The notes under the pieces: model-generated
Database searches by the model: none
The model's input: the letters and a program-made list of their open reading frames with translations, nothing else
Told to the model about the DNA's origin: nothing
Translations under genes and position numbers: made by a program
Shown here: positions 3,117-54,489 of the stretch, piece after piece
How the letters are laid out: each line of letters begins with the position of its first letter
Numbering within the stretch: the stretch's first letter is position 1
From: Nereocystis luetkeana
Lineage: Eukaryota > Sar > Phaeophyceae > Laminariales > Laminariaceae
Direction of reading: 5' to 3'
DNA: 64,000 nt
Assembly: GCA_031213475.1 (NCBI GenBank)
Contig: JARUPZ010000036.1
Location: 3,453,359-3,517,358 of the forward strand

Positions 3117-3228
3117 TTGCGGGGGAACATAGTTAATAGGACCTATGGAATACATAAAAACCTACCTGGTATATATTTGACCATTTTTACCAACAATATT
3201 TGGTCCTATTAACTATGCCCCCCCGCAA
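3117..3228 (-). mobile_element. MITE M1 copy 3 with a CCTGG micro-insertion
   Basis: Inverted ends GCGGGGGAACATAG and CTATGCCCCCCCGC. Inside, the family's ACCTATATATTT is interrupted as ACCTACCTGGTATATATTT. That is a CCTGG insertion with TA duplicated (3163-3171). Confidence 0.85.
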
Positions 3229-3257
3229 TAAAAAGAAGGGTCATTATATGAAATTTC

Positions 3258-3296
3258 TCAAGCACTTTGTCCCCAAGACGGGACTCTGTTCCTAAA
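3258..3296. mobile_element. MITE M2 half-copy
   Basis: Only the right arm is present (TTTGTCCCCAAGACGGGACT), truncated on the left. Confidence 0.55.
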
Positions 3297-3421
3297 TGTA
3301 GTGATATTTTTTATTGAATATTAGTGTACAAAAGGACGCTATATTTAGGGGCATATTAAAAAATAAAATGGGTCAAAAAGCGTACATACGCTAAAACAAA
3401 AACGAAAAACAGACACGGATC

Positions 3422-3450
3422 CACCACCACCACCACCACCACCACCACCA
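3422..3450. repeat. (CCA)n microsatellite
   Basis: About ten CCA units. Confidence 0.95.
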
Positions 3451-6898: not shown

Positions 6899-7183
6899 CC
6901 ACTTGACCACCGTCCACCGGGGGGGGCGGGGGGGGGGGTGACCATCCTTGAGCGGCCTTAAGTGAGTATGGTAGGCTGTACCAGGTAGGCTAAAAACCAC
7001 TCTCTACGTTAATGCAAGGACCGCATGGCCTTCACGGTAAGCTATACATGGTCATCATAAATCCGTCCAGCGTGGTATATTAATAAAGGTAAAAAAGCAA
7101 CAGCTGTGCGATGTGAGTGAGATCGAGGATTTCGGAGGCGTTCTACGTTAGAGGTTCACCCTATTTTTTCTGAAGCTAGTCTC

Positions 7184-7825: not shown

Positions 7826-8252
7826 ATGAGGTACCATAGGCATGCTTGTTACATTGCAGGTACCAGAGGTATAGTGTTCGCCGCTAAGCACGATTTCTCG
7901 CGTACAAATTTCTTCTTCTTTTTTTTCAAATCCCAAAACTTGAGCCTTGATACGTACCAGGTATTCTTGTTTCTGGCTGTTTTCTTATTCGAGGTGGGGG
8001 GTGCTTAGACTCTACAAGTAGAAGCGGGTATTCATTGGTGACAGCTGGGGGGAGGGACAGAAGACAACGTTCTCCGTTTTTGGCCGGAGCAGGTGTTCAT
8101 CGGCGAAAGCTGGGGGAGCCCTGCCGCAGCTGGAAAATATCACTCTGACACCATTTGGGTTCTGGGGTCAACATCAAACGGGGCGACTGTATTTCCAGTC
8201 GGAGTGGTACTGGTGTAAATAAGTGGTGATGGATATCGAACGAGAATCGATA

Positions 8253-8375: not shown

Positions 8376-8860
8376 AAACAAAAAACGATGCGATAACGAC
8401 AAACAAAAAATATCAATCGGTTTGTACAACCTCGATATTTGATATTTTTAGATTGAAGAAGATTTCGCTCAATCAGATACCAGGTACCTGGGGTATATGA
8501 TATCACACCATGTACAATAGAAAAAACGGAAATGCCAAAAGAGGGGATGGCGCGGGGGGGGGGATAAAAGGCGTGTTGAGACGACATATCCAAAGTTCGA
8601 CATTGCGATACGATATCCAACGCCTACTCGGGTATATACGTACGTACGTACATACGTATGGACTATAGATACACTCTGTCTTGCGAAACCTTTCCGAAAC
8701 TCCGCAACTGCTGTTTGTCATCAAAATTGGATACATTATAGGCGTGGTCTGCAGTACGGAACCGCGGTCTGCAGGTGAGAATTTCTCTCGCTCGGTGCGA
8801 AAGCGGCGCAGCTGCCTTTTCTTTCCGGACAGTTTCGGCCCGTTTTGGGTCCCGATCTTA

Positions 8861-8955: not shown

Positions 8956-9084
8956 GGGTCAGGGAGTTCCCGTCGAAAAGGGCCATGTTTGGACGTTAAA
9001 CACTAAACACCGCCGTCAACGCAAGTAAGCGCATACATACGATATGGCATCATCCCTGGTATGTGCAACACGCATCCTAGGTCA

Positions 9085-9270
9085 AAGATTTTCAGGAGGA
9101 GACATGCCGAGCAGCGCAGACCGTGCGCTGTCAAGGATGTAGGGCCGAGTGTTCCGGACTAAAACCTACCAGGGTATTAAAAGTGGTTTGGTGTCGGTCA
9201 AGGCATGCCAATCAAGGCTAAGTTGCTGCCTGTCAAGGGATGGAACTGCCTGTCTCCTGACATATTCGCC
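9085..9270 (+). repeat. Dispersed repeat G, copy 1
   Basis: About 190 bp. It shares GTGCGCTGTCAAGG, GTTTGGTGTC-GTCAAGGCATG and AAGTTGCTGCC-GTCAAG in order with 14490-14680. Both copies are rich in GTCAAGG. Confidence 0.75.
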
Positions 9271-9906
9271 CATATGTTGCAGCAAAAAAAAAAAAAAAAA
9301 AAACTTGATATATCCTGCCAAAAAGATGACACCTTACTACTGCTGCTGGTACGTGTACGAGTATACCAGGTATGTCCGTACTTGCACGCAACAGTTCATA
9401 TTTATATTTATATATATATTTATAAAAAAACTAAAAGAGTACGTCAGCTGTGAGTTCAACCGATCGGCAGATCGATCGATACTCAACTTTGCAAGCTGCG
9501 TGAACTGATCGCGCGTTTTCTTTTATACCTGGTATATTTTTTAAAAATAAAATGATGCAATACGTCAGCTGTGAGTTCGACTGATCATATACTTGATACT
9601 TAATATGTCTCGTCTATATCCCATTTTTATTTGTAAAAAATACCAAAAACAACAGCTGTTGAGTGAGATCGAGGATTCGGTCGAAACTCTATATTTGCAA
9701 GCTGCGTGTGATAGTTCGATCGCGCGTGCTACGGGTTCTATATATGGCCTCATGCAGGAAGTTCGGTAGTCCGCATATAATACGAGGGAGACAAAATCTG
9801 AAGCTGCAGAATTCAAGGAGTGGGTGTCTCTATATACACCCGAAACCAGTGTGCATGGGCCTGGCGTTTTTCTGCTGGCTGTACATCCTTCACCGCGCTT
9901 CGTGCC

Positions 9907-12050: not shown

Positions 12051-12493
12051 ATTAATAGCACATGAGGTACGAGCACGAGCGTACGTGTACCAGGTATGTG
12101 CCAACGTACCGGAAACGAAAGCCCGAAAAGCTAACACGTGTGTCGTATCATACGTGCCTGGTACGGAATGCCAGAATTCCAGGCGATAGACTTATTCATC
12201 AACGTACTACTTGTTGAAGCAAAACATCAAAATCGCTTGGAAAAATGACGAGACGGAGATTGAGAAGTTTCACGTGACTCGGGGCACATTACATACCCAA
12301 ACATCAGAGCCGCTTGAAAGCCGGCGAGATGCTTGTGTAGAGATTGGCATCTGCTTCGAGATTGAGCTGTGAGATTTGACACTTCCAGCCAAGATAGCCG
12401 CGAAAATCAAGAATGGCTTTGCTCGGGGAATCCTTTTCAAGAAATCGATCTACACCGTTGTTTTCGGAGGCGTTCTCCGCCCTTTATTTACTC
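12051..12493. other. No gene recognised
   Basis: Moderately AT/GC-balanced single-copy-looking sequence. No long frame and no recognisable domain. Confidence 0.4.
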
Positions 12494-12977
12494 TTACGGG
12501 GGACCATAGTTAATAGGACCAAATATTTCTAGTAAAAACGGTTGAATATATATATATATATATTTTTTTATTTATTTTTTTTATTTTTTTTCCATCCCAT
12601 TCATTATCTTCGCACATCTTCTTCTCTCTCTCCTTCCAACTCGTAACTCAGATCCGGGGTCACATAGCAGGCTCTTCTCCCCCCTTCCCGCTACGGTACG
12701 TGCCTTCATTTTTATCGCGAGAAGATTTCAGCCTTTTCTTCCCTCGTCGACTCGCATCGAATTGTGCCTACCCACGCTGCAAGGCGCTCTCAACAATTGA
12801 ATCCCTTTTTTTTATTTTTGCAAATAAAGTCAAAGTCCGACCCTCCTAGGGCTCGAACCCAGGACTCAAACAAGTAGAATTCGAGGTTAACCACTTGAAC
12901 CACCGGGGCGACCGGCTATATATAGGTTTTTATGTATACAATACCTGGTAGGTCCTACTAACTATTGCCCCCCGTAA
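12494..12977 (+). mobile_element. MITE M1 copy 6, split by a SINE-B
   Basis: The left half (TTACGGGGGACCATAGTTAA to ATATATATA) and right half (TATATAGGTTTTTATG to CCCCCCGTAA) make one M1. A head-bearing SINE-B sits in the AT-rich centre. The right half also has a CCTGG micro-insertion (12942-12950) exactly at the family's CATAGGTCCT. Confidence 0.85.
12556..12912 (-). mobile_element. SINE-B, best copy, with tRNA-like head
   Basis: On the minus strand the element starts with a tRNA-like head. It has an A-box-like TGGTTCAAGTGG and a B-box GGTTCGAGCCC (complement of about 12842-12908). A ~240-bp body with the shared core and a T/A-rich tail follow. Pol III transcription is inferred from the boxes. 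This is the only SINE-B copy here with its head. Confidence 0.8.
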
Positions 12978-14489: not shown

Positions 14490-14680
14490 GATGTCAGGAG
14501 ACATGTCAAGCAAGGGAAAACGTGCGCTGTCAAGGTTGAAGGACGAAGGGTTCCAGGCTAAAACGTACCAGGTACCAGATAGTAGTTTGGTGTCAGTCAA
14601 GGCATGTCAATCAAAAGGCAAAGTTGCTGCCCGTCAAGCGGTGAAAAACGCTGTCTTCCGACATATTAGCTTCTCCCATA
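14490..14680 (+). repeat. Dispersed repeat G, copy 2
   Basis: Collinear with 9085-9270. It carries TACCAGGTACCAG where copy 1 has TACCAGGGTA. Confidence 0.75.
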
Positions 14681-14930: not shown

Positions 14931-15215
14931 TTTATATATTTTCATCATCACTTTCGCTTTCCAGCCTAAAATTCGTACCAGGGTAGGAGGTTTTACCCTC
15001 GGCGATCTTCTGGACAAGCCGTGGTCACAGATGTCGTCCCTTCTCCCCCCCGGTACGTACGTGCCTTCATTTTTTGTCGCGCATAGGGTTCAGCATCCCC
15101 ACTGCTCGTCGATTTTCATCGAAGGTAGCTGGCTGGCGCTCTCGCGCTTTCCGCTATTATTAATATAATCATTTTTTTTAATGCAAGGAAAAGCCCCTAC
15201 GAGCATGCACTCGGT
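14931..15215 (-). mobile_element. SINE-A copy, head truncated
   Basis: Shares ATCACTTTCGCTTTCCAGCC, CTTCTGGACAAGCCGTGGTC, the core GGTACGTGCCTTCATTTTTT plus GTCGCGCATAGGG, and GCTCTCGCGCTTTCCGCTA with the copies at 19.4 and 24.9 kb. It stops at GAGCATGCACTCGG, before the tRNA-like head. Confidence 0.85.
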
Positions 15216-16264: not shown

Positions 16265-16862
16265 ATAAATTGAGAACCGAAAGCTGAAAGGGCTTTGCTT
16301 GTCTGTTTGTTTTTCCGTTGCTTTCGTTTTGTAACCGATATTTTAGCCCAATTATGTGAACAAATTACGTATACGAAACATACGCATAAACGAATTCATA
16401 CGTACGTATACGCGCGGTGTACGTTTTTTTGGGTATTTACCACATACGATACGAGATAGGCGCCTATACAACAGAGAGTTAATGTGAGAACAACAACAAC
16501 AACAACATAACATACTACCGGGAGATTATGTATATGTGCCAGGTATGATATGCAGAAGAAAAAAAAAAACAGAAACTGTTGTGAGATCGAAAAGGCACTC
16601 AAAACTCATCTGTGCAATCTTGGTGTGCATAATCCGATCGCGCGGGTTCTGCGGGAGGTGTACCTGGTAGGTTTTTAGAGCTGTCCACAAATCATTACCC
16701 TGGTATATACAGGTGTGAAAGCAACGATATCGCTCCCCACCAAGTTACGGTACACTCCCTTCTTGTAGGAGTTGCAGTAGGGTAGCCGTAGGCTTAATTA
16801 AACCTACCAGAGGCACAGAGTGTACAGATAGATAGTCATGCCTACAGGTATTCGAGTGTAAT

Positions 16863-19086: not shown

Positions 19087-19209
19087 TTACGGGGGACCAT
19101 AGTATATAGGCCCAAATATTGTTGGCGAAAATAGGTACTCGTACCAGGTAAATACTTTGTTTTTTTGTGTGTACCGTATGTAGGCCCTATTTACTATGCC
19201 CCCCCGTAA
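19087..19209 (+). mobile_element. MITE M1 copy 11 with a CCAGG insertion
   Basis: TTACGGGGGACCATAGTATA to TATGCCCCCCCGTAA. The core contains TACCAGGTA at 19142-19150 and is longer than the consensus. Confidence 0.85.
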
Positions 19210-20048: not shown

Positions 20049-20092
20049 ATACCTGGTATATATTTGGTCCCATTTACTATGGTCCCCCGTAA
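20049..20092 (-). mobile_element. MITE M1 right-half fragment
   Basis: TATATATTTGGTCCCATTTA to GGTCCCCCGTAA. Its left side is lost next to TACCTGGTA. Confidence 0.75.
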
Positions 20093-20096
20093 ATAT

Positions 20097-20230
20097 TTAC
20101 GGGGGACCATAGTAAATAGGACCAAATATCGTTATTAATAGTAAAAATAGGTACCAGGTATTTAATACCAGGTAAATACGTAGATTTTTGTTTGTACGAT
20201 ATGTATGTCGTATTTACCATCGTCCTGTAT
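20097..20230 (+). mobile_element. MITE M1 copy with several micro-insertions
   Basis: Starts TTACGGGGGACCATAGTAAA. The interior has TATTAATA (about 20132) and two TACCAGGTA (20152, 20166). The right terminus is decayed. Confidence 0.75.
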
Positions 20231-24714: not shown

Positions 24715-24894
24715 ACGTCGTGCAATAGTAGGTGGAGTAAATCTGGAGGACTGTGAGGGCATCGAGTTGGCTGGCAATAGGTCGCCGACTAGTCACTAGT
24801 CGGCCAAAGGCAACCGGTATGTACCGGGTACGTACTTATTAATAGGTGTATAATATGCTCAGGTAGATATATACCAGGGTACCTGGTATATATT

Positions 24895-25220: not shown

Positions 25221-25251
25221 CGACACGTATTTATTGTATACCAGGTAGTTA

Positions 25252-26014: not shown

Positions 26015-26499
26015 TACGCAGAGATAGCATGTTCTGCTGCGAGTGGGTAGCGCAACCCCCGTGGGAACCTGAGAGGCACTGAGGCAAGAATAGGCGATTC
26101 AAGCGGTGACGATTGCAGTAACGGCCGCTGCGTGACTGGGGGGTCATATTCTGTAACATGGTGTCTGGGTTTTGTCATGCAAGGCACGGAGCCGCACGGC
26201 ACGGGCGAAGGATTACCCAACTACCACTATTAATAGTAGTACTGCTGAGCGCTCACCTGTAGGTGGTCGGTGGCACCTACCAGGTATAACGTTAGCATCG
26301 TTTGGGTCGCTGTTTCGGCGTCCCCCCAAAAAAAAGGTTCATACCGGTACATACCAAGAGGTAGGTATAATTTATCATGTATTACCTTCGGTATGAAAGG
26401 GAGCATCTGCAAACCCAGCATCGCTGGCTTTAGCTTTTCGTGCGGTGGACGCCGTGATCGTCATTGACTCTCTATTATACCAGGTACATGGAGAGTACA

Positions 26500-26800
26500 T
26501 CTATACGGTGTGTGTGTTCTTCACATTTAACCGTTCTTTCTACCCGTCGACATCCAGCACAACCAGTGTCCGTGCCGATTCTTTAATCCCAGAAGAGATA
26601 CAAGTTACCAGGTATGTGGTAACGAAGCTACGCCACAGAGATACTACGTTGCCACGTACCAGTATGCAGTAAGCACAGCAGTGGGCAATGCAATGCCATG
26701 TCATTATACTATTATAGATACCTGGTACGACAGGCACGACATACACATTATATGAAATAGAGAAACGAAAGGAAACAATCAAAGAGAAAACAAAAAACAA
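26500..26800 (+). repeat. Repeat D, copy 6, with two CCWGG insertions
   Basis: Closest to the 42.9-kb copy. Where that copy reads AAGTTATGTGG, this one reads AAGTTACCAGGTATGTGG (26606). Where that one reads GGATACGACAGG, this one reads AGATACCTGGTACGACAGG (26719). Confidence 0.85.
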
Positions 26801-28492: not shown

Positions 28493-28927
28493 GCTGCAGC
28501 TGCCGTTGTTGGTTGCTGCTGTTGTGGTTGAAGTCGCCTCCACCGCATCATGTCGGCGTGCGGACTGCTGATGTACACACGGGGCGGCGCCGCAAAATCG
28601 CAGCAAAAAAAAGCGGGGAAGACGCACACAAAGACAAGAAGCAAGTAGCAGTGCTGGAAGCCGCGAGAATCATTAAATAGAAGAAGAAGAGCATGAATAA
28701 TAATTGCGACCGGCAGGAGACGGCGACAGAAGGACGGAGACACCGAAACAAACAGACGGACAGACATAGGGACATGCCGCGCGCGTATAGACAAGACCTA
28801 CCAGACAGACAGAGAGACATTCATTGCAGACGGCCAGTGCCATACTGTACCTGGTATGTACGTACGGGCATACGGTGGGTGCATGGCAGTGCATACGGTA
28901 CGACACTATACGACGATGATCAAACCT

Positions 28928-30344: not shown

Positions 30345-33300
30345 GTGAGTTGATGTATCGGCCTGCTTCCTCTATGGGTGTTTTTATGTTCGCTGACGCT
30401 ACGTACGAGTATGATGAGTACCACAGCAGTACGAGTGTCATACGAACCTCGCTTTGAACAAGCGGCGGAGAAAGAGAACAGCAGCTCTGTGGTCGGGCTT
30501 TTCTTTGGGAGTAGGAGAAGACGCGCTCGTCGGGTCGGGTCTGGTCGGGTCGGGTCGGGTCGGGTCTGTTCGGCACACCGAAAACCTGCCGTGTCCTCAG
30601 AGATGGTGCTCGAGTATAACCTCCGCCCCGGTCAAGCGTTGCTCCCGTCTCGTCGTAGGGGTACAGCTGTATAAAGACGAGCAAAGCGAGCACAAGACGT
30701 CGTGTCTACTGCTCGTCCGTACTCCCCCCCCCCTGCCCTCGCCCCCCCTCCCTCCTTCCCTCCCTGCCTATTCACACGTCCACCTCGACGAGAGAACAAC
30801 CAAATACGTATTCGAGTGTAGCGTACTTGCACAGCAGTCGTTTATGGAGCGAGTCGGGGCGTGTTTGCGCGAGGATGGAACCGATTAGGTGAACGGATCT
30901 GAGCCTGACTGCTGAGTGGAGTCGTACAACACAACAGATATTGTGCTCGCTGTACGTTCGTACAGCGGTACAAAAGTAGTACCCTGGTACGAGGTACGGT
31001 CGTACGAGTGATGCGATTTGACCGCTTTGCGCGAGGCATTCTGGCAATAGAGAGGGCGTAAAGCTCTACGCGCATGCCATACAAGTACCATGTCTGCTCT
31101 GGGGAGCATACCCGGTCTTATACACGGTACCCTGTATACCTGAATATATATAATGATACCAGTATGGTATTAATAGCTCAAGGCGCCACCATCAAATATG
31201 GAAGGGCGCATCGTGTGCGGGTTGAGCAGACAGCAAGCAGAACGAACGGAATGGAAGAGATTATCGCCCCCACAAGTACAGCCAGTAGTAGCTCTCAACG
31301 CACGTCCGGGTACTCGCCGCCTCGTCGTACTGCATTCTCGCGTTTGCAATACGATGATGGAACTATCGCATACCTGGTACCTGGTAGAGTACAGCAACAT
31401 CAGTATAAAAGTCTATATTCCTACGACTGCGGGATGGGGAAAACATTTCATATCTTCCCCCCCCCCCCCCCCCCCCCGACCACCGGCCATTGCCCGTGTG
31501 TTGGTGTTGCCGGCGGCAACAGTCCTGTAACACGAATCCAGCTCGAGGGTTGCAGCACAGCAGCAACAGCAGCAACAGCAGCAACCTGTATATGCGCATG
31601 GCGGTAAAGACGTAAAACCTGCCACACGGCACATACATAGGCAGAACGGCAGCAACAGCAGCAACAGCAGCAACAGCAGCAGCAGCAGCAGCGGTACGCA
31701 CACGTTGGCGTCGAGACTCGATATACTTACGTACAGCAGTAGTACTATTACGGGGGACCATAGTAAACAGGACCTGCGGTAGACACTAAAACCTTTATAT
31801 TTACCTATTTTTACTAACAATATTCGGTCTTATTTACTATGCCCCCCCGCAATAGTTTTGGGGTTGGGAGATCCAGTTAGTAGTTTCCTTAACGGTCGGT
31901 CCGTCACAGACAGAGAATGCCGTCTCCCGACATCATTTTTTTTTATGTAGGCTGCTTCGTGTGCAAGCGTCTGGACGTTTCACGTCGCGACGCGAACGGA
32001 AGGAAGAGTGTTTGCCTGTTCGTCACCCGCTTCTTTGAAAACTGAACCGCGGCCGACATAACCAGGAGCGCGTTGCTCCAACGTCCTCGCCCCCTCCGTC
32101 CCAGAACGGATGCGTGGTGAATGGTCTAATGACCAAGCAAGCAACACGCAGATACGCCCCCTCCCCCCCCCCCCCGCCGGCAAGATGGATGCGATCCTAT
32201 TAATACTAAAATAACAGACTCGCACCTTGACGCAAGGATCAACAGGATGTATCCTGACGAATATGATATTAATATACCAGCGCTAGAATTTGCAGAAGTA
32301 TGGAAAGGGAGATCGAAATTAGTAAAACATGTGGAAACAGCAGCCGTGGGCGAGGATAGTCATTCGGGGGGTAAGCCCCGACATTCCCACACCCAAGGGT
32401 CCTTGAAAAACAAAACCAACAGAGTAATAATACAGATTACAGCAGCTAAAAAATACTCCAGGTGTTCAATCAAGTACGACTACTAAGACAGCAGCTAAAA
32501 AATACTATTACGGGGGGTCATAGTTAATAGGACCTATGGTATACATAAAAACCTACCCTGGTATATAGTTAGCGATTTTTAGTATCAACATTTGGTCCTA
32601 TTAACTATGGTCCCCCGTAAATATTAATAGTGGTCTAGTGCCACGAGTATTGCAGTACCCAGGTATTCAAAGAGCAGAACTGAGAATTTATTTCCACCCA
32701 CTTTTAATATCAAATCAATACACGAGAAAGTTGAAACGGCAATGTAAAGTAAAAAGGAACTTTACAGAAAAGGAGGTTGTCAGCAAATAGTTGATACCTG
32801 GTACCTGGTAGAGCTGTATGGGAGAAAGTGGGTAGCGTAGTGGAGAAACCATGGAAGAATACTGGAGGAAACCAAGAAGAGATGATGCCCGCAGATAAGT
32901 CTTGGCATGCACAAGACAGAAGTAGAAGAAAACATAGAAAGAATGGAAAGGCTGGCCGTGATAAGCAAGGTGAAATCGGAGGAACAACTTGGAGGTAAGC
33001 GGGAGGTCAACCCCTTTAGAGCCGCAGTCCCCTTTTGGGGACAAACTACTTGAAATTTGACTGGTCTGTCCCCAAAATGGGACTGCGGTTCTAAAGAGGT
33101 TGAGCGTAGGGATAGGAATGGAAATATGTCTGCACGGGCTAATGGACTTCGTGAGAACGCCGAAACTGCGATTTCGTGTCGGGGACCTGGACCTGCCATA
33201 AACAAGAATGAGGAAGTACACGCACAGATATGCCCGTGTGGGAAGGAGAGTATAACTCATGTAGTAGGAGAACGTTTTTTTGCACAAGGAGGAACGGGAT

Positions 33301-36300
33301 GTATTAGGAGAGAAGCTGAGGGGGACAGACGAACGTGACCTGGAGGAGTTTGGTACACTACTTACTGCTGTACCAGGTAGATAGCAGCGAGAGAACGATC
33401 GCCATCCTAGGAGATAGAAGGTGGCTACAGGCGGCGAAACAGGGAGGGGTTAAAACCAGCAAAACGTTTCTGTGTACTCGTAATGTATGGAAACAATGTA
33501 ATGAGCGCCCAACTGTCGGAGGTGTCTCTGGTAGGAGAAGGAACGGTGCTCCGTCTCGGAAGGAATGCATGACCAACTGTCAAATGACTAAGGCAAGCAA
33601 CGAATGAGTACGCCCCCCCCCCCGCGTCACTTCCCCCCCCCATATTTGTTAGTTGGAAGTGAGCAGAAGATGAACTACCGATCGTAGACCAATATACGCA
33701 CCTTGTAGTAGTAGAGGTCTTAAAAGACTGCTCTTGGGATACATACGTGAGCAAAAAAAATAGGGAAGAGTAAAGTACACGTAGGAAAGATGGATGCGAT
33801 CCTATCAGACTCGCACCTTGACACAAGGAAAAAGAGATGCATCCTGCTAAATGTGATACGAGTAGTCCCAAAGCCAAAAATATGCGGGACAAGTATGGGA
33901 AGGGAACGCGAAGTTCGAAAAACAGCTGGAAACAGTACAGATGTCAGCAGTTATATAACCAGGATGCTCCAGAACGACGAGTAATACCCTTTTAGGACCG
34001 CAGTCCCGTTTTGGGGGACAAATTACTTATAATTTAAGTGAATTATTCCCTAAACGGGATTGTGGTTCTAAAGGGGTTAAGAGCGGAACTGGGAACGATC
34101 CGCTCAACCCTTTTAGGACTGCAGTCTCGTCTTGGGGACAATTGGGGACAAGTTACTTGGAAAGTGAGTGGTTTGTCCCCAAAACGGGACTGCTGTTCTG
34201 AACGGGTTAAGGCAAATAGATAGAGGAGAAAGTTTGAATGGCAATAAAACGTACCAGGGTAAGGCTAACGACAGGTAGGGACAAAAAGGAGATTGCCAGC
34301 CATAGTTGATAGAGCTTCAAGGACGAAATAACGGAAGGGCGGGCCGGGATAAGCAAAGATGGATAGCGTGGTTGAGAAAAAATGGAAGGATTTAGGAGGA
34401 AACGAAGAAGAGATGATGCTTTAGTACCGCAGTCCCGATTTGGGGACAAACCAGTCTAATTCCAAGTGATTTGTCCCCAAAACGGGACTGGGGTTCTGAA
34501 AGGGTTGAGAGAATTTCGGCAGGTACAAGACAGAAGTGGAAGATAGGATAGAAAGAAGGGCAAGACTGTCGCTAAGAAATAAGGTCAAACTAGAAGAACA
34601 CCTAGAGATGTACCGGGGGTTGGGCGAAGGGATAGGGACGAAAACGTACTTGCACGGCTCGATGGACTTGGCGAAAACGCTGAAACTGCGCTTTCGTGTG
34701 GGTGACCTGGACCTGCCAGACGGAAGAAAGATGTATGCCAGTAGCCGGCAGGAGGAGGAAGTAGATGCACAGATGTACCCGTGTGGCAAAGCAGTCGAGT
34801 AGAACTCACATAGTAGGAGAAGGAGGAATGCACGAGGAGGAACATGACGATGTTATAAGAGGAGACGAGGGAAACAGGTGATACGGAGGAGTTTGGTACA
34901 CTAGATAGCATCGAGAAGACGGTCGCGATCCTATTAATAGGAGATTTAGTTGGTGGCCACAGGCGGCCAAACAGGAAGGCGATAAGATTAACAAAAAGTT
35001 TCTACTACGCAATATATGGAAACAAGGTAATGAGCGCCCACATGTTGGAGGTATCTCCATTAGGAGTAGGAAAAGGGTGCTCCGTCTCGAAAAGAGATGC
35101 GTGGTTGGTGGTCAAATCGCTGAGGCGAACAACAAAAGAGTACGCCCCCCCCCGCCCAAACCCCCGCCCGCAATCATACCGCCGATGCAATGCCCCCCAA
35201 TTCCTACTCCGCTCCACCTCCCTCCAACCCTCAACTACACCTCCTCCCCACGCCTCCCCCGCGCGCTCCACATTGCCTCACCCCTTCCCCTCCCCCGGCC
35301 CCGCCCTCCCGCTTTCACCCTACCGCCTGCCGTATTATAGGTTCCCACTTCCTCGCTCGCGGCCACGGCAGCCTCTGTGGCCTCCGTGACGTCCGCGGCC
35401 TCCTCGGCCTCGTCCTCGTCGGGTGGTGTCGGCGCCAGCCTCGCGGCGGCGGGGGGGTTGGCGGCCGCGTCGGCGCCCATCCTGGGCGCAATCGGCGTGC
35501 TGGCCCTGGTGATCACGCTGCACGAGGCGGGCCACCTGGTCGCGGCCCTCTCGCAGGGCATCCGGGTTGAGACCTTCTCGATCGGCCTCGGGCCGAAGCT
35601 GCTCTCTTACCGCAGCGGGGGCGAGAAGGGTTTTTTCAGGGGGACCTTGTCGGGCCCATCCTGGGACGTTATCTCGCCCCCCCCCGGGCTGGACGGGGGG
35701 AGGGAGGCGAGGGAGGGGAGGGGAGGGGGGGGGGGCAAGACGGCGGCGGCGGTGGCGAAGGCGAGGGGGGGCGCGAAGGAGGTGGAGAAGGGGATCGGGG
35801 AGTGGGAGGAGGGGGTGGAGGTGGGTGCGGGAAGTGGGGGTGTAGGGTTATAGGGTGTGGGAAGGGAGGGGGGGGGGGTCTCATTGCTGCGACGAGGCTC
35901 TCGCTGTGGCAATAGCGTGATGGGGCTCGCTTTGTGTTTGGGAGTGGCGTTTGCACACCGTGCGAGGATTCGACAATCTCTCAGGGCTGGTGATCACTCT
36001 GAGAGAGGCCGAGCCCGAACCGAACCGAACCGAACCGAACCGAACCGAACCGAACCGTGTCGTTGGTCTTTTGTTTGGTCGAGGCGTTCGAGTGAAAGGG
36101 CCGACCGCTTGGTCCGGAGTCGACTACAAAATACCGACTCGATCAAAACCATGCCAAACATGCTGTACAACGTAACCAAATCACCCCATGTATCCTTACG
36201 AGCACACAGCAGTAGACTACTGTATACTATATAATATGCCCTTGCCAATGAACGATGGTAGGTTGGCCTCTACCGCCACCATGTTCGGCGTCGTGTGCCT

Positions 36301-40174: not shown

Positions 40175-40209
<35 letters not shown>

Positions 40210-43200: not shown

Positions 43201-46200
43201 TCGTTTTCGGGCCAATTGGGGACGAATTACTTGTAATTTGAGTGCCTGGTCCCCCAAACGGGACTGGAGTTCTAAAGGGGTTAATGGCGGGCGGCGTGAT
43301 TTCGCATGGTTCGCGTTAATTCAGCTATTTTTGTTTCATAGATAGCTGGCGTGGCTCGCGTTAGTACAGCGGTATGATCGGTAGATAGCTGCCATCAACT
43401 GCCCCGAGTTATGTCACACTTGCCCTTTCCTGCTACCTGGTACGTCGTAACGTGATACTGTTGCTTGACCGCAGCAGGAGGCCGGCCGCAAGGTACTCTC
43501 GCCTTGGATTTGAAGTCACGACGAAAAACATTGCCCATGGATGATGACTTTGAAACAACCCGTTTGGGGTCAGGTTCTTCATCGACGAACAAAATTCATT
43601 TTTTTCATTTCAAAATTCTCGAATTCAGACGATGCGTGAATACTGGCTCTGGGATGTGTCTTATATTGAAGTTGATCTAGAATCGGCACTTCCCCCAGTA
43701 TGAAACGGACCAGCCTTAGACAGCATCCCTGTTTGTTGCCACTATTAACCCTTTTAGAACTGCAGTCCCGTTTTGGGGGCAATCCACACAGTTTCCAAGT
43801 AGTTTGTCCGCAAAACGGGACTGCGGTCCTGAAAGGGTTAATACCATATTTGGTTCCTATAGTGTATGTAGGCTTTTTAGGTGCAAGCCCAATTGGTCAA
43901 GCCTGCCCTCTGCATAGCCGCCGCCGAATTTCGGAATTTTGGTGAAAATATATACCTGGTATGTTTTTGTCACTTCGATGTTTCGTTGATTTTTTTTTTT
44001 GGTCGTTTCGAACGTTCTTCGAAATTTCTTCGAAAATTATTTTTTCCTGTGTGTAACTTGACGGCAGATCTCGGACCCTAAGGGGGGGGCCGCTGCGGCG
44101 GGGTTCAGGCCGAAGGACGTGTTTCTCTCCATCAATGGAAATGCTTTGGCGGGCGACAGCACGTGAGTGCTGACTGCTGTGTATGGCTGTTCTGGTTTGA
44201 CTTGTTTTGGTGATGGCTTGGTTTGTTTTGTTTCGTTTCGGATTGCTTGTCTGCGAGTTCTGTGTTTTTGTTCGCTTCGTTTTGCATTGGTGTCCTTTGG
44301 TTTTGCGTCGGTTCGGTTCGGTTCGGTTCGGTTCGGTTCGGTTCGGTTCGGTTCGGTTCGGTTCGGTTCGGTTCGGTTCGGTTTGCTTTGCTTTGCTTTG
44401 ATTTGCTTTGCTTTGATTTGCTTTGCTTGTCTTCGCTCTGCTTTGCTTTCCCTGCTTTGCTTTCCCTGCTTTGCTTTCCCTGCTTTGCTTCGCCTTTTCC
44501 CTGCCACCCCATATGTTGCACCATCTCTGCACTATGCCTTGAACACAATGAGCTTTTGTGTACCAATATTCAATAAAAAATGTCCCTATATTCATGGACA
44601 GAGTGGTATGCTGCATCTTGCTTGTTTTCGCGCCTGCCTGTTTTGAGTGACCGGTTCTGTTACCTTACCCCCTTTTGTGGGCTCACTGTTTGACCCTGCG
44701 CCCTTCGCCCCCCTCCGCTTCCGCCCCCTGCCGCTGCCGCTGCTGATCTCTTCCTTTGCCTTCAGGAGTCTCGAAAAGGCCGTCAAGGCCATCCGAGCCT
44801 CCGAGGGCAAGCCGGTGGCCGTGGAGCTGTTGCGCGACGGAGCGAAGCCTGTGGTTCGAACGGTCAAGGTGAGGCACGAAGGTAGAGAGGTCCAGAAATG
44901 TCGGTTGGTACTGTACGTCTAGCAGAGGTTGTGACCCCGTCTAGGTCTTTATTTTGTCTTGTTAATGGTATACTACTGCAGTGTCGGTGGCGGTCTAGCA
45001 GTGGTTGAGACCCGTCAAGGTGTATCTTTAGACTTATTAAGAGTACATGTACTACTGTAGTGTTAGTTGACGGTCCAGCAGTGGTTGTGACCCGTCAAGG
45101 TGTCTCTTAAGACTTTTAGTATGCTAGTCTCAATTGACGGTGTAGCAGTTGGTTGTGACCCGTCAAGGTACGTCTTGAGACTTGGGTTTTTAGTAGTATA
45201 CTACCGTAGTGATGGTTGACGGTGCAACAATGGTTGTGACCGATCAAGGTATTTATTCAGACTTATCAACAGTATACTAGTGTCAGTTGACCGTGTAGCA
45301 TTGGTTGTGACCCGTCAAAGTATCTCTTCAGACTTGTTAGTAGTATACTAGGGTTACTTGACGGTGCAACCGTAGCTGTGACCCGTCAAGGTCTAACTTC
45401 AGACTTATTAGTAGTATACTGGTGCTAGTTGACAGGTCTAGCAGTGGTTGTGACCCGTCATGGCCTCTCTTTATACGTATCAGTATTATTCTGGCGTTAG
45501 TTAACGGTCTAACAGTAGTTGTGACCCGTCATGGTCTATCGTTATTCCTATTAATGGTATACTCAGTGTATTTGACGGTCTGGCAGTTGTTGTGACCCGT
45601 CAAGGGGCCTCTTAAAAACTTATGAATATTGATATAGTGTCACAGTGGTTGATGGCCAAGCAGTGGCTTTGACCCCGTCGAGGTCTCTCACAGACCTAGT
45701 ATGCTCGTGTTAATGTTGGGAGCTCCGTGACGGCTGTCCGTCATGGGACATATGCCCCGTCAAGGCCTTCCCTTAGATTTAGTATACTAATGTCAGCCTG
45801 GGGAGTTCCGTAACGGCTGTCATACGGCTGTTAGACGGTGTAGTTTTCGCCCGTCAGGGTCTGTTTAGGTTTAGTGTACTAAACTATACTACAGAAGTAG
45901 TTTTTGTTGTAGAGAGTTTCGGTGGTCACATGCCGGTTTGACGGTATAGCTTTGGCCCGTCAAGACCCTTTTTTTAGACATGTTATGCTCATTTTCGTGC
46001 ACGGGGGGGTGAGTTCCTTGGCTGTCCGTCAAGGGGCGACAGCGGTGCCGTCAACCATTGCATCCTCTTTGCGAAGGGGGAGCCGTCAGTGAGCCGGCCG
46101 ATGGCGCAGTTAGGTCTGTTATGTCTACCGGAGGTGTGACGACCGGAGATGTGAAGACCGTTCGGGTATTTTGCTATGGATACCTGCAGCTAAGCCTGTT

Positions 46201-49200
46201 ACCGCTGCCCCTAAACACTACTACTGAACACAATCGGTACCTCGAGATATGGACCTCTTGATTATTAATGGTGAACGCAATCGTTCCTCATCACCCTCTG
46301 AAATATAAGAAACTACAGTAGTCCGACTGCTCGGTCCCTCGGCAAGTTTGTTTCCGTTCGGTTTTTGCTGCAGAGGGTCGGTCGCCTAGAATCTCGGTCG
46401 GGCACAAACCGCTGAGAAGAACGACCACGAATAAAGTCTCGTTCCATTCCAGTCAGTCAAATCGGTCGGATGAGTAGCCTGCACATTGCAGTATCAGGAA
46501 TAATATGTCCCCTGAAATACCTACCAGGGTAGATCATTTTGTGGGAACCGATCGCCTGTCGGAGGTGTAACCCCCCTCCCCCACCGTTTTTTTTATGAGC
46601 TGCATTTTTTCCCCCCCGTAAGAATCCCCAAACACAAGGGCGCAAATTCTAAAAGAGGTTAACCCCTTTAAACTCCAGTCCCGTTTTGGGGACAAGCCAG
46701 TCAAATTCCAAGTAATTAGTCCCCCATTGTCCCCGAAACGAGACTGCGGTCCTAAAAGGGTTAAAAACATATTTCAGAACTGCAAACCAAGAAAAAAACT
46801 CATGCTTATACTAATTCCAAGCAGATTTTCCCCCTAAAACAAAGGGTAGTTATTCTTGGAAAGGGTTTAAAAAAAATGTTTTTAGAACTTGGGGTGCACG
46901 TATCGAAAAAAATCGGCACATCCCACCATTTCGTTTTTCGAGACCCAGCCCAGACAAGGGGTATTATAAAACCAAGCAAAAAAAATCTTTGCCCGAAACA
47001 AATTCGCTTCTCATGTCGATGGATTCGCCCGGAAAAACCTACAACCCCACTGGTTTTTATTTTCTTTCATGTGGACCAATTTTCGGAGTGTCGTTTTTTT
47101 TTTGTTTTTGCCTTTTTTTTTTTTTTCGCCATGCGCCCCCTGTTAGAGAAGCTTCAACAAACTCTATCCCATACCGAACGAAGTATGATATGTACGTACT
47201 GGTACCCTACCTGGTATGCATTATAGAGGTGATTCTCCGTGCTTATGGTGCCCCCCAAAAGGCGATCTTTTTCACGGTTCTACCATATGGTTACTACTAT
47301 CACGGAAGACCATACTAAACAGGACCTACGGTACACACAAAAACCTGTATATTTCGCTGTTTTTCCTGCCAATACTTGGTCCTATTTACTATGCCCCCCC
47401 GTAATAATACCCCCTGACCCTCTCCGGACGTCAGAGGAGGGGAAATGGATAATACGAAGTGACGACCACGGCAACCATTGTCGCCGCTGCGTGATTGTGG
47501 GGCAAGGAGTTTTTTTGTTTTTCCCCATTTTTTTTTTTCGAATTCGTTTTTTAAATCCTCCAGCGGATTGGGGGGGGGGAAGAAAAAAAAGAAAGCTTAA
47601 GCTCACCACACTTTCCACGTTCAGATTTCGTGTCGGGGTTGCCAATTTTAACCCGTTGCTCCAGCTTGGGCAACGTTGACCCGACCGGACCCCCGAGAGG
47701 GGCAGGTGCGGTAGAGATAGCCACCCGGGGGAGTCATCTCTCCCGGGTAGTGTGGGGCTTGCGCGAGCTAAAGAGACCGCCGGCACGTGTGCAGCACTAT
47801 CCCGCCCGGTATGTAGGTACCGGTACCGGAATGTACCATGAGTAATTCGCCGTGTACGTTGTGTCCACCAAAAACCAGCTTTTGCAGTTCTACAAAAAGG
47901 CTACCTGGTATTATTTTCACGGGGGGGCGTATTAAATAGGACCAAATATTGTTGGTAAAAATAGCGAAATTATAATAGGACCAACTATTGTTCGTAAAAA
48001 TAGCGAAATATGTGGGTTTTTGTGTGTACAGGCGTACCAGGTATTAAATAGGGCCAAATAGTGTTAGTAAAACTAGCGAGATTAACTACTGGTAGGACCC
48101 AATACTGTTAGTAAAAATAGCGAAATATCTCGGTTTTTGTGTGTACCGTAGGTCCTATTTAATATGGTCCCCCGTCAATAGTAGTAACCCTAGCCCTCTC
48201 CGGACGTGAAAAGAGGGAAAAGCTGACGGTACGAAGTGACAGACGGTTACATCCACCATTGTTGCCACTTGCGTCACTGTGGGGCACAATACAATGGTTG
48301 GCGTCCACGAGTCACATCAGCGCAAGGAGTCGTAACGGCGTGGGAGCAACCATTGATCCCACCTGAACTGCCGGGGGGGGGGGCTCACGCTTCTCGTAAA
48401 TGGTTGATATCGCCAACGTTATGTTTGTTTTAGGCGCTTCGTCGGGGGCACAAAGGGGTTTTGATGTTCAAACCTTGTTGTGCGGCTGCTGCGAAAAAAT
48501 TATGGCATACCACTTCTGTAGTTCCAAAACACTGTGGTTTTGTCTCTTCCAACAAAAACACGTGATACGGTGGCTTGTTCTGAGCGGTTTGACTTATAGC
48601 GCTCCCCTCCCGCCCTTTGCTGCCCCCACCGCGTTTTTCTGCCGCCACCGCCTTTCGCTGCCACCGCGTTTTGTTGCCACCGCCGCCTTTTGCTACCACC
48701 GCCCTCGCCTTTTCTGCCTCCGCCTGTTGCTGCCACCGCTTTTCGCTACCACCACCGCCTTTTGCTGCCACCGCCGCCTTTTCCTGCTGCCACTACCGCC
48801 GCCAAACTAAAAAGACGGCGATGGGACCTTCCGGGAAGTACACGATAGGGGTCCTCCTCGCACCCCACCTCGAGTCCGTAGAGAGGAGCAAGGCGGCCAA
48901 TCCCGTGGAGGCGGCGGGGATGGCGTTCGAAGAGACTGCCATGCTGACCACCAAGACCCTTGATTCGTTTGTGCACCTCGTGTCCACGGGGGACGTGGAA
49001 GGCGTGTGAGTGAGAGGAGGGACGGGGGGAGAGAGAGAAGGGGGGGAGGGGGGGGGGGGGGGGGGGGGGGCGGATGTTTGCTCGATATCATGCATGGCCG
49101 TAGTCGTATGACCGTAGACCCTCGCGAGTCTGCAGTGCCGGCGACGGAGCGACGTCGGGTTTTAAACGACCGGGGAAGGCATTGCTTGCTCGCACCAAGC

Positions 49201-51034
49201 GCGAAGCGAAGCGTGAGGTGTTCGTCGAGTCGCATGGGGGATGCAGCTGCGTCCTGCTAGGAACCGCTTGTGAGGCGGACTTGCAACATGGATGATAGCT
49301 TCCATGAGATAATATAGCTCATGCCATGTATGGCCCTAGTCGTATGACGGCGAGAGCCGAGGAGGTGGGGGGTGGTGGTAGTGTTCGTAGTGGTGACAAT
49401 GAGGGAGGGAGGGCGTGGGGGTCGTACCGGGAGGGAGGGTGGACGGGAGTGGTAGTGCTGGTGTAGGTGGTGATAGTTGTGGAGGCGGTAGTGGTGGTGG
49501 AGATGGTGATGATGGAGATGGTGGTGGAAGTGGTGGTGAAGGTATTTACGGCTGTGCTGGTGGTGGTGGTGGTGGTGGTGGGGTGGGGGGGGGTGTTGGT
49601 CCTTGTGCCGGGTGTTGTTGTGGATGCCTCGCTGTAGTGGGTTTGCTTTTGTTTTGCGTGTTTTCTGTTTGCTTCGTTTTGTGTTGGAGACTGCTGTATT
49701 TTTTTGTTGTCCAAGTCGTTGCGTTTTTTTTTCTTGTAGCGTGGTTTTTGTGTGTTTACACCCGTATATGTCTACGAAGGTATGCACGATGGATTTGCTT
49801 CGCACACGCTCACGGTGCCGAAGGCAGCCCAATCACCGCCTCTCTCACTCGACATCGCGCGTGCAACCTTTTCGCGCGCCAAATAGTGCATTCAAACATA
49901 TTGTACATCGAGACCCCCCCCCCCCCCCCCGCTCGCCCTCCTAAAAATACTTACGTACTGTAGAGCCCGTTTTTCAAGTTTGCTTCTTCTCGGGCATGTT
50001 AAGCCAATCAAATCCCCCACCTGCTCGAAAAAATATTTCATCCCCTCTCAGCAACAATAAAATTACCCCCCACACCCGCCCCGTCCACACCGCACTCCAC
50101 CCCGCCCCGTCCCACCCCATCCCACCCCGCCCACCCCACCCCACCCCGCCCACTCCAACCCACCTCACCGCCCCCCCATCCCACCCCACCCCCACGCCCA
50201 CTCCCACCCCACTTGGGGGAGTTTCCGGGATTTTTGCTGTCCGCAGGTTCCGAATAATAATGAAAAAAGTACTACGGAAACGTCGCAGCCTTGTTTTTTT
50301 CTCTCCCGTTTTTTTGGCCGTTTTGGTTTTTGGGTCCGCGTTGGCTTCAGGGTCATGTTTTGGGGTTGTGTTAGTTTGGTTAGAAGGGTGGGTTGGGGTC
50401 TACGGTACGGCCGTGCCGTGTTGAGCTCACCAGGGGAGTTGCTTCCTGTGGCCCGCAAAAAGCAACGAGCATGCTCCCACCCAATCCCTGGAAAAGATGG
50501 GTCCTACGGTACACTCGATAAATTATTGTCACGGGGGACCATGGTGAATAGGACCAGATATTGTCCGTAAAAATAGCGAAATATATTGGTTTTTGTGTGT
50601 ACCGTGTAGGTCCTACCAGGATATTTAATGTAGTCCCCCGTAATCGGTCTCCCCACCCCACTTTCCCGTTGTATCATGCGTCGGGAGGCAGGTCTGGGCC
50701 CGTGGAGATCGTGAAGGTAGGGGCCGAGGTGGCGACGGAGGACGGAGCGACGGCCCTCCTGCAGTTCGCGGCGGTGATCTCGGTGAACTTGGCAGTGATC
50801 AACTCGCTCCCCGTTCCGGGGCTCGACGGGGGGCAGATGGTGTTCGTGCTGGCGGAGCTGATCACCCAGAAGAAGCTTGAGCGGTGCGCGCGCGCGTTCT
50901 TTTTTGGGGGGGATCTTTTTGGTCTAGTGCCTTGGCGTGGCGGTTTCTGTTTGTCTGTATGTCTGTTTGTTTGTCTGTCTGTCTGTCTGTTTGTTTGCCT
51001 GTCTGTCTGTCTATCTGTCTGTTTTTTTGTCTGT

Positions 51035-51072
<38 letters not shown>

Positions 51073-54000
51073 TGTTTGTCTGTCTGTCCTGATGCCTGTA
51101 TGACTGTCTGTCCGCCTGTGTGCGTGTCTGTATGCTATCTGCCTGTCGGTTTTTCTTCCCGCCTACCTGGTATCTTCCTGTTCCCATAGGTGTACGCGTA
51201 CTACTTTTTGTTTTTGTGCATTGCCCCTCTTCGTCTCTAGCTCAACTCTCTGAGGCTGTTGCCCCCTGCGACCCTCTGGACCAGCCGTGGTCACAGGTGC
51301 CTTGCCTTTTCCGGAAGTGGCCACACCGGAACAAATACCTAATTTATTCGACGCTGTCATCCTTTTCAAGAAAGTCCACCTCACAGGACGGTTCATAGTA
51401 GGATGCAGCTCGCCGTCCATACTAGTCGCCGAACACCTCACGCCCGTGGATTCGTCGACTTTTGCCAACTCACACTCTCGCGCTTGCAGGGACATGATGC
51501 AGTGACGCGACAAAAAAAATCGACTCTGAAAATGAAAACGGCCGTTTTTGGTACGCGTAGGAAATGCTTTTCCCGCCAAGCAGCGAGAACCCCTTGCACC
51601 CATGCTGCTGCAGAGGCGACTATTGACAGTTAGCTAGCCTGATGAGATTATTTTACGCCCACTGACAGGTCATGATCTACTGGTAGATCATTGTTTTGAT
51701 CATCTCTCTAGCTCCTCGCTTGCCCTTTGTGAGAGGTTGCGCAGGATCTGCATACAGCAGCAGTACAGGTCTAACCCAGGAACCATGCGCTAGATAAAGC
51801 GGGCTATACGGCTCCCACCCGGCCACATACGCTAGCTCACGCAAGGTCCGGAACAGATGATCCGTCTCCCTTGATCGATCTTTTAGATCATTTAAGTGGG
51901 TGTCGATCATCATCTCTGGCTGAGGTGCATTTTTTTTTATCTCACCCAGCTATGCTTTCTGCGAGACCAACATGAGTTTTGGTCTGCGTTTTATTCGCCT
52001 GGCTACGAACCTACACAGAAAGCAAGATAAATAGTATGGGCTCGGGGCACCGGGAGAAGACCACAGCCCAAGCCTACTGCGCGTGTTTTGGTGCTGTTCG
52101 GGGGGTTAGAGATGCGGTCAGGGTTGGGCTGGGATAGCCCCCCCCTCCCTCCGCCTGACGGTAGAGATCGAAGCAGCGAAGCAGGGAGTGACGGTGGGGG
52201 AAGATGCGGTGTCGGGATTGATGTCGGCGGGTGACTTCATGGGGATACCAGAAACACCCGAAGGATTGCGGAAACAAACAGAGAAGGTGCTGCAATACAC
52301 TTGGGAAATGGAGAGTGATGGTAATCACAGAAGTGCGCAGTGGTTGTATGTAACGAAGGTAAGGCGAACCCGGTAAGTTCCAGTTGGAAGTGGGGAGAAG
52401 ATGACTTACGAATGGTAGACCAGTATACGTACGTTGGCGTAGAGATCTCAAAAGACTGCTCTTGGGATCCACACATAGCAAAAGTAGTAGGAACGGGTGA
52501 ATAAAGCACGCGTAGGGAAGATGGATGTGATCCTAACAAGCTCGCACCTCGACAACAGGATTAAGGGATGTATTCTGATGAGTGTTTGTAGTAGCAAAGC
52601 TAGAATATGCAGGAGAAGTATGGGAAGGGAACGCGCGAAATTCGTAAAACAACTGGAAACAATAAACAGATGACAGCAGCTTACGAAGTACTACGATGCT
52701 CAAGTACGACATGTAGCACAGGTTTTTAGAGCAGAACTGGGAATGATACGCGAGACAAAGAGTCACGAAGAAGTTGAAATGCCAACCATAGTTGACAAAA
52801 AAAGAGATTGCCAACCATAGTTGATAGAGTTGTATGGGAAAATGTAACGGAGGGCCAGCTGACACACGGTGGGATAACGTCGTTAAGAAATTATGGAAAT
52901 ATATAGGGGGATACCAATAAGAGATGATGTCCGCAGAGAAGTTTGGGAGGTGCAAGACAGAAGTAGAAGAGAGGATAGGAAGAAGGGAAAGGCGAGCGCT
53001 AAGAAGCAAGGTGGAACGGAGCAACACTTAAAGAGATATATGACGTGTTTGGCGAAGGTATAGGAATGAAAACGCATTTCCACGGCCCATTGGACTACGG
53101 GAAAACGCCAAAACTGTGATTTCTTGTAGGGGACGAGGACCTCCCAGAAAGGAGGTATGCCAGCAGCTGGGAGGAGGAGGAGGAGGAGGAGGAGGAGGAG
53201 GAGGAGGAGGAGGAGGAGGAGGAGGAGGAGGAGGAGGAGGAGGAGGAGGAGGAGGAAGTAGATGCACAGACGTGCCCGTGTGGCAAAGCACTAGAGGGTA
53301 GAAATCACATGGTAGTAGAATGTGAAATGTGCAAGGAGGAACGGGATGTGTTAGACGAGATGAGGGAAACAAACGAATGTGACATGGAGGAGTTTGGTAC
53401 ACTGGATGGCATCGAGAAAACGATCGCTATCCTAGGAGATATATAGAAGATGGCCACAGGCGGCGAAACAGGATGGGAGAAGTTTTTTTCCACGTAATAT
53501 ATAGAAACAACGTAATGAGCGCCCACATGTTGGAGGCGTCTCTATCAGGAGTAGGAACGGCGCTCCGTCTTGAAAGGGATGTGTGGTCAATGGTCGAAGG
53601 ACTAAGCCAAGCAACAAAGAGTACGCCCTCCCCCCGCCCCCCCCGGTGTAAAACGGTACAAAACTCCAACCGGTGTACGAGTACACAGTTACCAGTTTGG
53701 GCAGGGCAAGGGTACACGAAGTAAAAAAGACGACACCCTCACCTTTTCGTATGAGTCGAAGACAGGGGGGAGGTTTACTAAACTCCAGTGAAATAATATA
53801 TATATATACCAATATATATAAAAATATTTTATATATATATTGAAAAAACATGTTTAGTGTGAAAAATTCTGACGACACTCCCGACCCGCAATCGCAGTTT
53901 GTTTTCAATTGAAGTCCGACATTGTGGCGAGCGTTACTCCCTTTTTTCTTGTGTGTGCGTGCTTTTTGTATGTGTACCCCTGGCTCGGACTGTGTTGTTT

Positions 54001-54489
54001 CCCCCTGGAGCAGTGTCGGTCGAGCTCAACAAGTAGTTGCGCCCCCCCCCCCCCTACAAACAGTAGTATACCAGGTACCTAGTACGAAGTAGCAATGTTT
54101 CGAGGGCTGCTGATGCCGCTGCTGTAAACGGCCGTGAAGACATGCATACATACGTACATACGTATATATGTACAAACATACCTACATATGATACGTACAC
54201 ACATACCTGGTACATGTACACAACAGTTAGTTTCGGCGAGGGCGGTGGAATGTTCCCTGGCTGTGAGTACGGTTACGAACATTTCAGCTGTGTACGGCAG
54301 TCAACATAAGATGTTAGCGTCGCGAAAGAATGGATAAATACAGCTGTTGAGAGTGTATTGGCCCTCACTCAGCTCAACCTTGGTGGGCAAATAGTTTTCA
54401 ATAGTTTCTTTTTTTGCAGAAGCAGCAGCAGTGCCGCGCCGGGTACCCGTTATTGTTGTTGTTGTTGTTGCTGTTGTTGTTGTTGTTGC

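Follow-up and report, generated by a model that had tools for sequence, protein, structure and literature searches.

The nine-base word TACCWGGTA, scattered across a 64,000-nucleotide stretch of the genome of the brown alga Nereocystis luetkeana (GenBank assembly GCA_031213475.1, contig JARUPZ010000036.1, forward-strand positions 3,453,359 to 3,517,358; hereafter the window), is very probably the excision footprint of a low-copy Tc1/mariner transposon of the DD39D (PlantMar-type) group. A sequence-only reading of the window had proposed that the word is the scar of a cut-and-paste element that targets TA, which stands, and that this element has CCWGG ends cut with a 5-nt stagger, which does not: 84 element tips in the genome begin with CCAG, and those reading TACCWGGAGTCYGACA number only three.

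The window holds 36 copies of the word (17 with A and 19 with T at the center), exactly as first counted, and Markov models predict 0.58 (order 2) or 1.02 (order 4), in line with the earlier estimate of about 0.5. All of the start positions listed for these copies are correct except 24890, which should be 24880. Counting the word across the genome, a check proposed by the sequence-only reading, gave 182,395 occurrences in 465,085,209 bases (1,987 contigs), or about 1 per 2.55 kb, against 1,744 for a reversed control word. An unbiased sample of 264 kb, made up of the window and 20 stretches of 10 kb (L009–L028), holds 113 copies (36 + 77) where 2.2 are expected. One of these stretches, L012 (C4:1000001-1010000), consists of N at 2,500 of its 10,000 bases and has a GC fraction of 0.48 in the remainder, with four scars. 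Two further sets of stretches were selected rather than sampled. L029–L040 entered via a transposase search and are counted in the sister-repeat, word-excess, target-matrix, tandem-prediction, decay, register, half-site, element-site, and 256-tip analyses. L001–L008 were chosen for holding TACCWGGTA, and L001–L004, L007, and L008 are counted in the nested-insertion, filled-query sister, tandem-prediction, and decay analyses, where they slightly raise the number of intact scars. The variants quoted earlier are also present: TACCAGGGTA is common (17 against 0.7 expected in the larger sample), and the window has a single TACCACCTGGTA (39679) and a single TACCAGGATA (50614). Among the literature matches listed, none reports a TACCWGGTA scar, and none of the listed papers that contain the word seems to be about a scar; their uses of it resemble primers.

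The word arises by insertion at TA with the addition of 7 bp, as comparison with sister repeats reveals. When the flanks of a scar were joined and repeats of the joined sequence were sought elsewhere, the sisters of 3163, 12942, 26606, 26719, 32795, and 48035, and of scars in L026 and L030, were found to carry plain TA or, elsewhere, a mutated TA. The empty state claimed earlier for sister repeats is borne out at 26606, 26719, 12942, and 32795, which align to plain-TA copies and in some cases also to mutated-TA copies. A second search used the filled sequence as the query and found a usable sister at 12 of 129 sites. In this alignment of repeat families, likewise suggested beforehand, exactly 7 bp were missing in 83 of 125 sister pairs, compared with a 7-bp gap in 36 of 1,821 pairs for control TA-N5-TA words. 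The remaining pairs were filled (3), had another gap (33) or a 6- or 8-bp gap (5), or had diverged (1). One TA of a miniature inverted-repeat transposable element (MITE) has been used repeatedly and separately, with TACCTGGTA at 3163, TACCCTGGTA at 32554, and another scar at 7056 of L026.

A palindromic preference is evident in the bases around the scars: A or T at -7, A (and avoidance of T) at -6, A at -3, and a purine at -1. A weight matrix built from 103 non-tandem scars separates scar sites from all TAs with a leave-one-out area under the curve (AUC) of 0.85. The same matrix also recognizes the flanks of TA-CCAG-TA (AUC 0.76, 35 sites), TA-CCGG-TA (0.75, 15 sites), and TA-CCAGGG-TA (0.80, 15 sites). 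It fails on TACAGTA (0.47, 111 sites) and on the control words TACACTA, TATCATA, TACGATA, and TACGAGTA (0.53–0.54). TACCSGGTA is in excess in the sample (16 against 2.1; at 6774, 5798, 23363, and 24822 of the window and elsewhere in the sample) and is perhaps the scar of another family; the target preference is not clearly shared by its 16 sites (AUC 0.58). The word TATTAATA is also strongly in excess, with 76 sites against 6.5 expected in the 264-kb sample, and is without the target preference of CCWGG.

The inserts form a series of sizes that matches a four-base tip. Insert classes were predicted from two 3′ CCAG overhangs that pair in different registers, and the counts in the sample were compared with expectation. 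Full overlap (CCAG, CCGG, CTAG; 4 bp) gave 61 against 21.6, three-base overlap (CCWGG; 5 bp) 120 against 2.5, two-base overlap (6 bp) 20 against 1.35 (CCAGGG 17, CCATGG 3, CCCGGG 0), one-base overlap (7 bp) 1 against 0.2, and no overlap (8 bp) 0 against 0.04. When every one of the 256 possible four-base tips was ranked, with the tip already known by then, CCAG came first, and most of the words next in order were AT-rich ones that stem from simple repeats. Element ends beginning with CCAGGG were considered and found to be wrong; CCAGGG is made of CCAG from one side and GG from the other.

A candidate source for these scars came from a profile search of the genome with DUF7769, which we take to be a domain of plant-type mariner transposases. 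Its 19 matches led to L046 (C3:5833000-5836300), where an intact-looking element of 2,020 bp (389-2408) has TA at both sides, an open frame of 492 codons, and inverted ends of 33 bp including the TA that are 97% identical. These ends start CCAGTCCGACATTTTATATAGG (beginning TACCAGTCCGACA when counted with TA), and the ends of the family read CCAGTC(C/T)GACA. The second and third catalytic Asp residues are 39 residues apart in all three proteins measured (L045, L046, L047). DUF7769 scores over the cut-off in two of them, with L047 just under (26.3 against 27), and HTH_Tnp_Tc3_2 does so only in L047, lying below the cut-off in L045 and L046. TA target duplication and short inverted ends are found in L046 and in 16 facing pairs of tips. 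The Asp spacing and the domains together suggest that the family is a DD39D (PlantMar-type) Tc1/mariner. Profiles of related groups were also searched: PF13358 (DDE_3, Tc1) had no genome match at E ≤ 0.001, with L046 scoring 12.2 against a cut-off of 28.6; PF01359 (Transposase_1, DD34D mariner) had no genome match, and neither did its control; and L046 had no DDE_1 match up to E = 1. A search with PF13359 returned 57 genome matches.

The family is small. The L046 protein has at least 92 genome matches among the 87 of 163 candidates that were scored; with a spacing of more than 5 kb, these make up no fewer than 59 places, 13 of which lie along C29:3.89-5.05 Mb with 35–38% identity. The perfect tip TACCAGTCYGACA occurs 84 times in the genome (41 + 43), against 3 + 5 for its reversal, and the 16 facing pairs among these tips leave 68 places with at least one perfect tip. 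Twelve facing pairs span 534–588 bp, a length from which these copies are presumed to be non-autonomous, and the others span 674, 2,020 (L046), 3,105, and 3,383 bp. Elements of this kind had been sought earlier in the first 264 kb, as TA-flanked sequences with CCWGG (or CCAG) terminal inverted repeats, a search suggested by the sequence-only reading that gave only scar-on-scar matches. A nested-insertion search found other MITEs and no CCWGG- or CCAG-ended element among 60 of its 328 results.

The elements and the scars share their choice of site. The flanking sequence was read on both sides for 10 facing pairs and for L046, so that of all 16 only those on C2, C5, C14, C38, and C117 were left out. 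As a group, the 10 element insertion sites carry the scar preference (AUC 0.918, p = 2.3e-6), with a mean target score of 2.25 that compares with 2.16 for scars and -2.29 for background. The sum is positive at nine of the 10 sites and -0.70 at the other. Ten further half-sites, including the two of L046, agree with the scar preference (p = 6e-4). In addition, six of the 84 tips directly abut a scar, a share of 8.8% when counted by place (six of 68) and near the 8.7% of tandem pairs among scars (15,917 of 182,395). These abutting tips look like insertions into TAs made by a scar, the step before a tandem scar.

We propose the following route from element to scar. The element inserts at TA and duplicates it, and its inverted ends begin CCAG|TC(C/T)GACA; the bar, four bases in from the end, marks where the transposase is predicted to cut the non-transferred (outer) strand. 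Each flank would thereby retain a 3′ CCAG overhang after excision, and end joining would anneal the two. In the favored register, a C:G and a G:C pair would surround an A-A mismatch and leave one-base gaps, so that gap filling and mismatch repair would produce TA-CC(A/T)GG-TA. The full-overlap register would yield TA-CCAG-TA and TA-CCGG-TA, and a looser one TA-CCAGGG-TA. The central W is best read, as had been suggested before, as a resolved mismatch like that of Sleeping Beauty, whose footprint has the form C(A/T)G with a central mismatch. Every scar also holds two new TAs that suit the preference, and landing there again would give tandem scars.

The scars decay as neutral sequence would. 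Forms with one mismatch are in transition-rich excess (62 against 20.7 for transitions and 59 against 39.9 for transversions), and the reversed control word has no such excess (42 against 46.5). The decayed forms keep the flank preference (52 sites, AUC 0.66). Divergence is about 5.6% if the scars have a single age, or their ages are spread evenly over 0–13%, with ages biased slightly downward by the word-selected L001–L004, L007, and L008 in the sample. About 1.65 scars have formed for each intact one, and this correction turns 182,395 intact scars into some 300,000.

Tandem scars are numerous as well, with the word TACCWGGTACCWGGTA occurring 15,917 times in the genome and its reversal twice. 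A TA made by a scar has favored bases on its scar side and a matrix weight about 5.6–6 times that of the average TA. The first 59 plus-strand tandem pairs listed (contig C1) have the central bases AA in 23 cases, TT in 17, AT in 14, and TA in 5, and the excess of AT over TA fits the preference for A at -3. The spacing of scars goes beyond a null with uniform TAs and not beyond one weighted by site preference. Local hopping was considered as well and is unneeded, as the site-preference null covers the spacing.

Other explanations of the word were weighed against these results. The element first proposed, with CCWGG ends and a 5-nt stagger, likewise predicts 5- and 6-bp scars from a CCAGG tip, and three TACCWGGAGTCYGACA tips do exist. 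Such a tip has no 4-bp register, however, and yet TA-CCAG-TA and TA-CCGG-TA are both in excess and show the target preference; with 84 tips reading TACCAGTCYGACA and just three CCWGG-tipped ends of the family in the genome, we consider this version very unlikely. Less credible still is an origin from another TA-targeting family, for example a pogo-like one. A DDE_1 search (PF03184) returned 28 genome matches, of which 12 loci were read, and two pogo-like families have TA-flanked ends starting CAGT (elements at L029 38-2061 and L039 235-2422, with ends starting CAGTGGGG or CAGTACCGG); a further DDE_1 locus, L037, has other ends. Tips of CAGT predict TACWGTA, which is in excess (115 against 40.7) but at an AUC of 0.47 lacks the target preference of CCWGG, and the DDE_1 ends found, at part of the 12 loci, include none starting CC(A/T)G. 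TACWGTA is probably the three-base scar of the pogo-like elements themselves, and the footprints of different families in one genome look separable. We give almost no credence to a palindrome maintained by selection or by sequence-directed repair, of which HIP1 is the example for comparison. High density would suit it, as would the rarity of single-mismatch forms within the window alone, but sister repeats lack the 7 bp, the flanks carry an integration preference even around decayed forms, and the larger sample holds the transition-rich mismatch excess that neutral decay predicts; mutational decay of this kind therefore argues that the word is not a maintained motif. An end-filled break at CCWGG, the alternative raised with the original proposal, is by reasoning unnecessary, since filling would duplicate CCWGG and not create it at a TA.

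Several observations weigh against the excision footprint of a DD39D element. Just six of the 12 sites supply the 83 sister pairs with an exact empty state, and the other six sites have only differently placed gaps. Five of the six contributing sites lie, in our reading, in one MITE family, so the 83 pairs are not independent. The matrix alone is no proof of a scar because TAGGWCCTA (AUC 0.91, 18 sites, many of them in what we read as one MITE family) and TATATATA (0.86, 99 sites, with AT-rich flanks that fit the matrix) lie outside the model and also score high. TA-CTAG-TA, which the model includes, falls below significance (0.59, 10 sites). The insertion site of L046 itself sums to -1.35. 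Three tips read TACCWGGAGTCYGACA with A or T at the center (L045 near 3934, L052 near 87, and C21:8893938), resembling a scar joined directly to an end that lacks its first two bases, and L053, L054, and L049 have other irregular tips. Site preference with steady accumulation predicts about 7,500–8,100 tandem pairs, half of those observed; 40 of the 59 listed pairs share a central base, above the half or so expected for independent repairs; and the site-weighted null over-predicts close spacing below 100 bp. The family was placed by Asp spacing and domains and not from a tree, the four-base cut is deduced from the scar series and not from a measured cut, and no locus was seen at which one haplotype holds the element and the other a scar. 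Finally, the ratio of about 2,700 intact scars per place with an intact tip (182,395 over 68) requires a long history or many lost copies.

For that ratio, the simplest reading is long hopping at a roughly constant copy number, through which scars would have accumulated with no net gain of copies; the alternative is the loss of a once larger element population. More tentatively, and with somewhat more doubt than confidence, we suggest a hop-only life, in which cut-and-paste transposition leaves end-joined donor sites with almost no gap repair, copies stay near a hundred while scars reach about 300,000, and the process feeds itself through the two preferred targets in each scar. If this is right, the scars are a genome-wide, datable log of the jumps of one family. 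The usual gauge of cut-and-paste activity is the number of copies that survive, and here that gauge falls short of past jumping by about three orders of magnitude. With scars in such numbers, each a trace of target choice, repair register, and age, the products of end joining become open to study in a lineage where genetic tools are scarce. Because an event adds 7 bp, one that fell in coding sequence would shift the frame. The word by itself may mark past activity of the family in other brown algae.

The proposed mechanism is of a known kind, and four-base cuts are reported for plant relatives. Among the literature matches listed, however, nothing in print was found to equal its scale, the number of scars per copy, or the targets that scars themselves create. 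PlantMar or DD39D elements (rice Osmar5, bamboo Ppmar2, and the Stowaway MITEs) have in common with this family the D(39)D spacing, short inverted ends, and a TA target. In the available part of one source, PlantMar elements are 2–6 kb long, compared with 2,020 bp here, and are reported only from plants and stramenopiles, with oomycetes named (PMC7325037); the host here is instead a brown alga. Excerpts of another source give the footprints of Ppmar2 and Osmar5 as one to four end-derived bases and those of Mos1 and Sleeping Beauty as at most three (PMC9632168), and the accessible text on Passer gives 0–4 bp (PMC9976928). Stowaway in Australopyrum is described, in the portion consulted, as leaving footprints and re-inserting at a TA with an older footprint, and grass MITE copies are said there to be numerous (PMC1925063), whereas here an intact tip remains at 68 places and footprints number about 182,000. 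Sleeping Beauty and other Tc1-type elements share the staggered cut inside the end, the 3′ overhangs, and the end-joined footprint, judging from an extract that gives three-base 3′ overhangs for Sleeping Beauty (PMC7827188). Its overhang and footprint both have three bases, whereas here the overhang appears to have four and the scar mainly five. The TcMar elements of Ectocarpus, compared by description only, are similar as brown-algal Tc1/mariner elements with short non-autonomous copies; the words "excision" and "footprint" are absent from the main text of that source, and end sequences are absent from the passages seen (PMC12477816).

The scars in the window are listed below. Those of the TACCWGGTA form come from the word count and are given without strand, with the state of sisters taken from the sister search; the 6-bp register scars come from the variant search.
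3163..3171: scar TACCTGGTA in a MITE; most sister copies shown have TA
6979..6987: scar TACCAGGTA
7955..7963: scar TACCAGGTA
8478..8486: scar TACCAGGTA
9167..9176, plus strand: 6-bp register scar CCAGGG
9364..9372: scar TACCAGGTA
9526..9534: scar TACCTGGTA
12088..12096: scar TACCAGGTA
12942..12950: scar TACCTGGTA; most sister MITE copies shown have TA
14566..14574: scar TACCAGGTA
14976..14985, plus strand: 6-bp register scar CCAGGG
16661..16669: scar TACCTGGTA
16696..16705, minus strand: 6-bp register scar CCAGGG
19142..19150: scar TACCAGGTA
20050..20058: scar TACCTGGTA
20152..20160: scar TACCAGGTA
20166..20174: scar TACCAGGTA
24872..24881, plus strand: 6-bp register scar CCAGGG, tandem with 24880
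24880..24888: scar TACCTGGTA (given earlier as 24890)
25239..25247: scar TACCAGGTA
26278..26286: scar TACCAGGTA
26478..26486: scar TACCAGGTA
26606..26614: scar TACCAGGTA; sisters have TA or mutated TA
26719..26727: scar TACCTGGTA; four of five sisters have TA
27898..27906: scar TACCAGGTA
28386..28395, minus strand: 6-bp register scar CCAGGG, tandem with 28394
28394..28402: scar TACCTGGTA, adjoining a 6-bp scar
28848..28856: scar TACCTGGTA
30980..30989, minus strand: 6-bp register scar CCAGGG
31371..31386: tandem double scar (two of the 36)
32554..32563, minus strand: 6-bp register scar CCAGGG, sharing its MITE position with 3163 (also sister search)
32795..32810: tandem double scar (two of the 36); the sister at 52.8 kb has GATAG
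33371..33379: scar TACCAGGTA
34252..34261, plus strand: 6-bp register scar CCAGGG
43434..43442: scar TACCTGGTA
43953..43961: scar TACCTGGTA
46522..46531, plus strand: 6-bp register scar CCAGGG
47208..47216: scar TACCTGGTA
47902..47910: scar TACCTGGTA
48035..48043: scar TACCAGGTA; one sister has TA
51164..51172: scar TACCTGGTA
54069..54077: scar TACCAGGTA
54204..54212: scar TACCTGGTA

An M50-family peptidase also lies in the window (35341-51103), in two parts about 15 kb apart that may belong to a single gene with long introns. An N-terminal exon of importin-beta type is at 29043-29765, and the open frames of both have no scar inside. A MITE family with TTAA flanks and ends CCCCTTTWAAA (18734-18827, 6806-6898, 33007-33104, and others) is suggested by its target to be piggyBac-like, and a second MITE of about 100 bp, with ends near GGGGGACCATAGTTAA, has many copies. 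The EsV-1-7 domain has at least 150 matches in the genome (all scored, of 1,714 candidates), and the passages seen of one source describe this domain as having proliferated in brown algae (PMC12477816), which fits the host. Two very long pentanucleotide arrays lie near the end of the window, (CGGGT)n at 59610-60039 with 86 copies and (GTTCG)n at 61762-63287 with 305 copies, and the latter appears to switch unit along its length.

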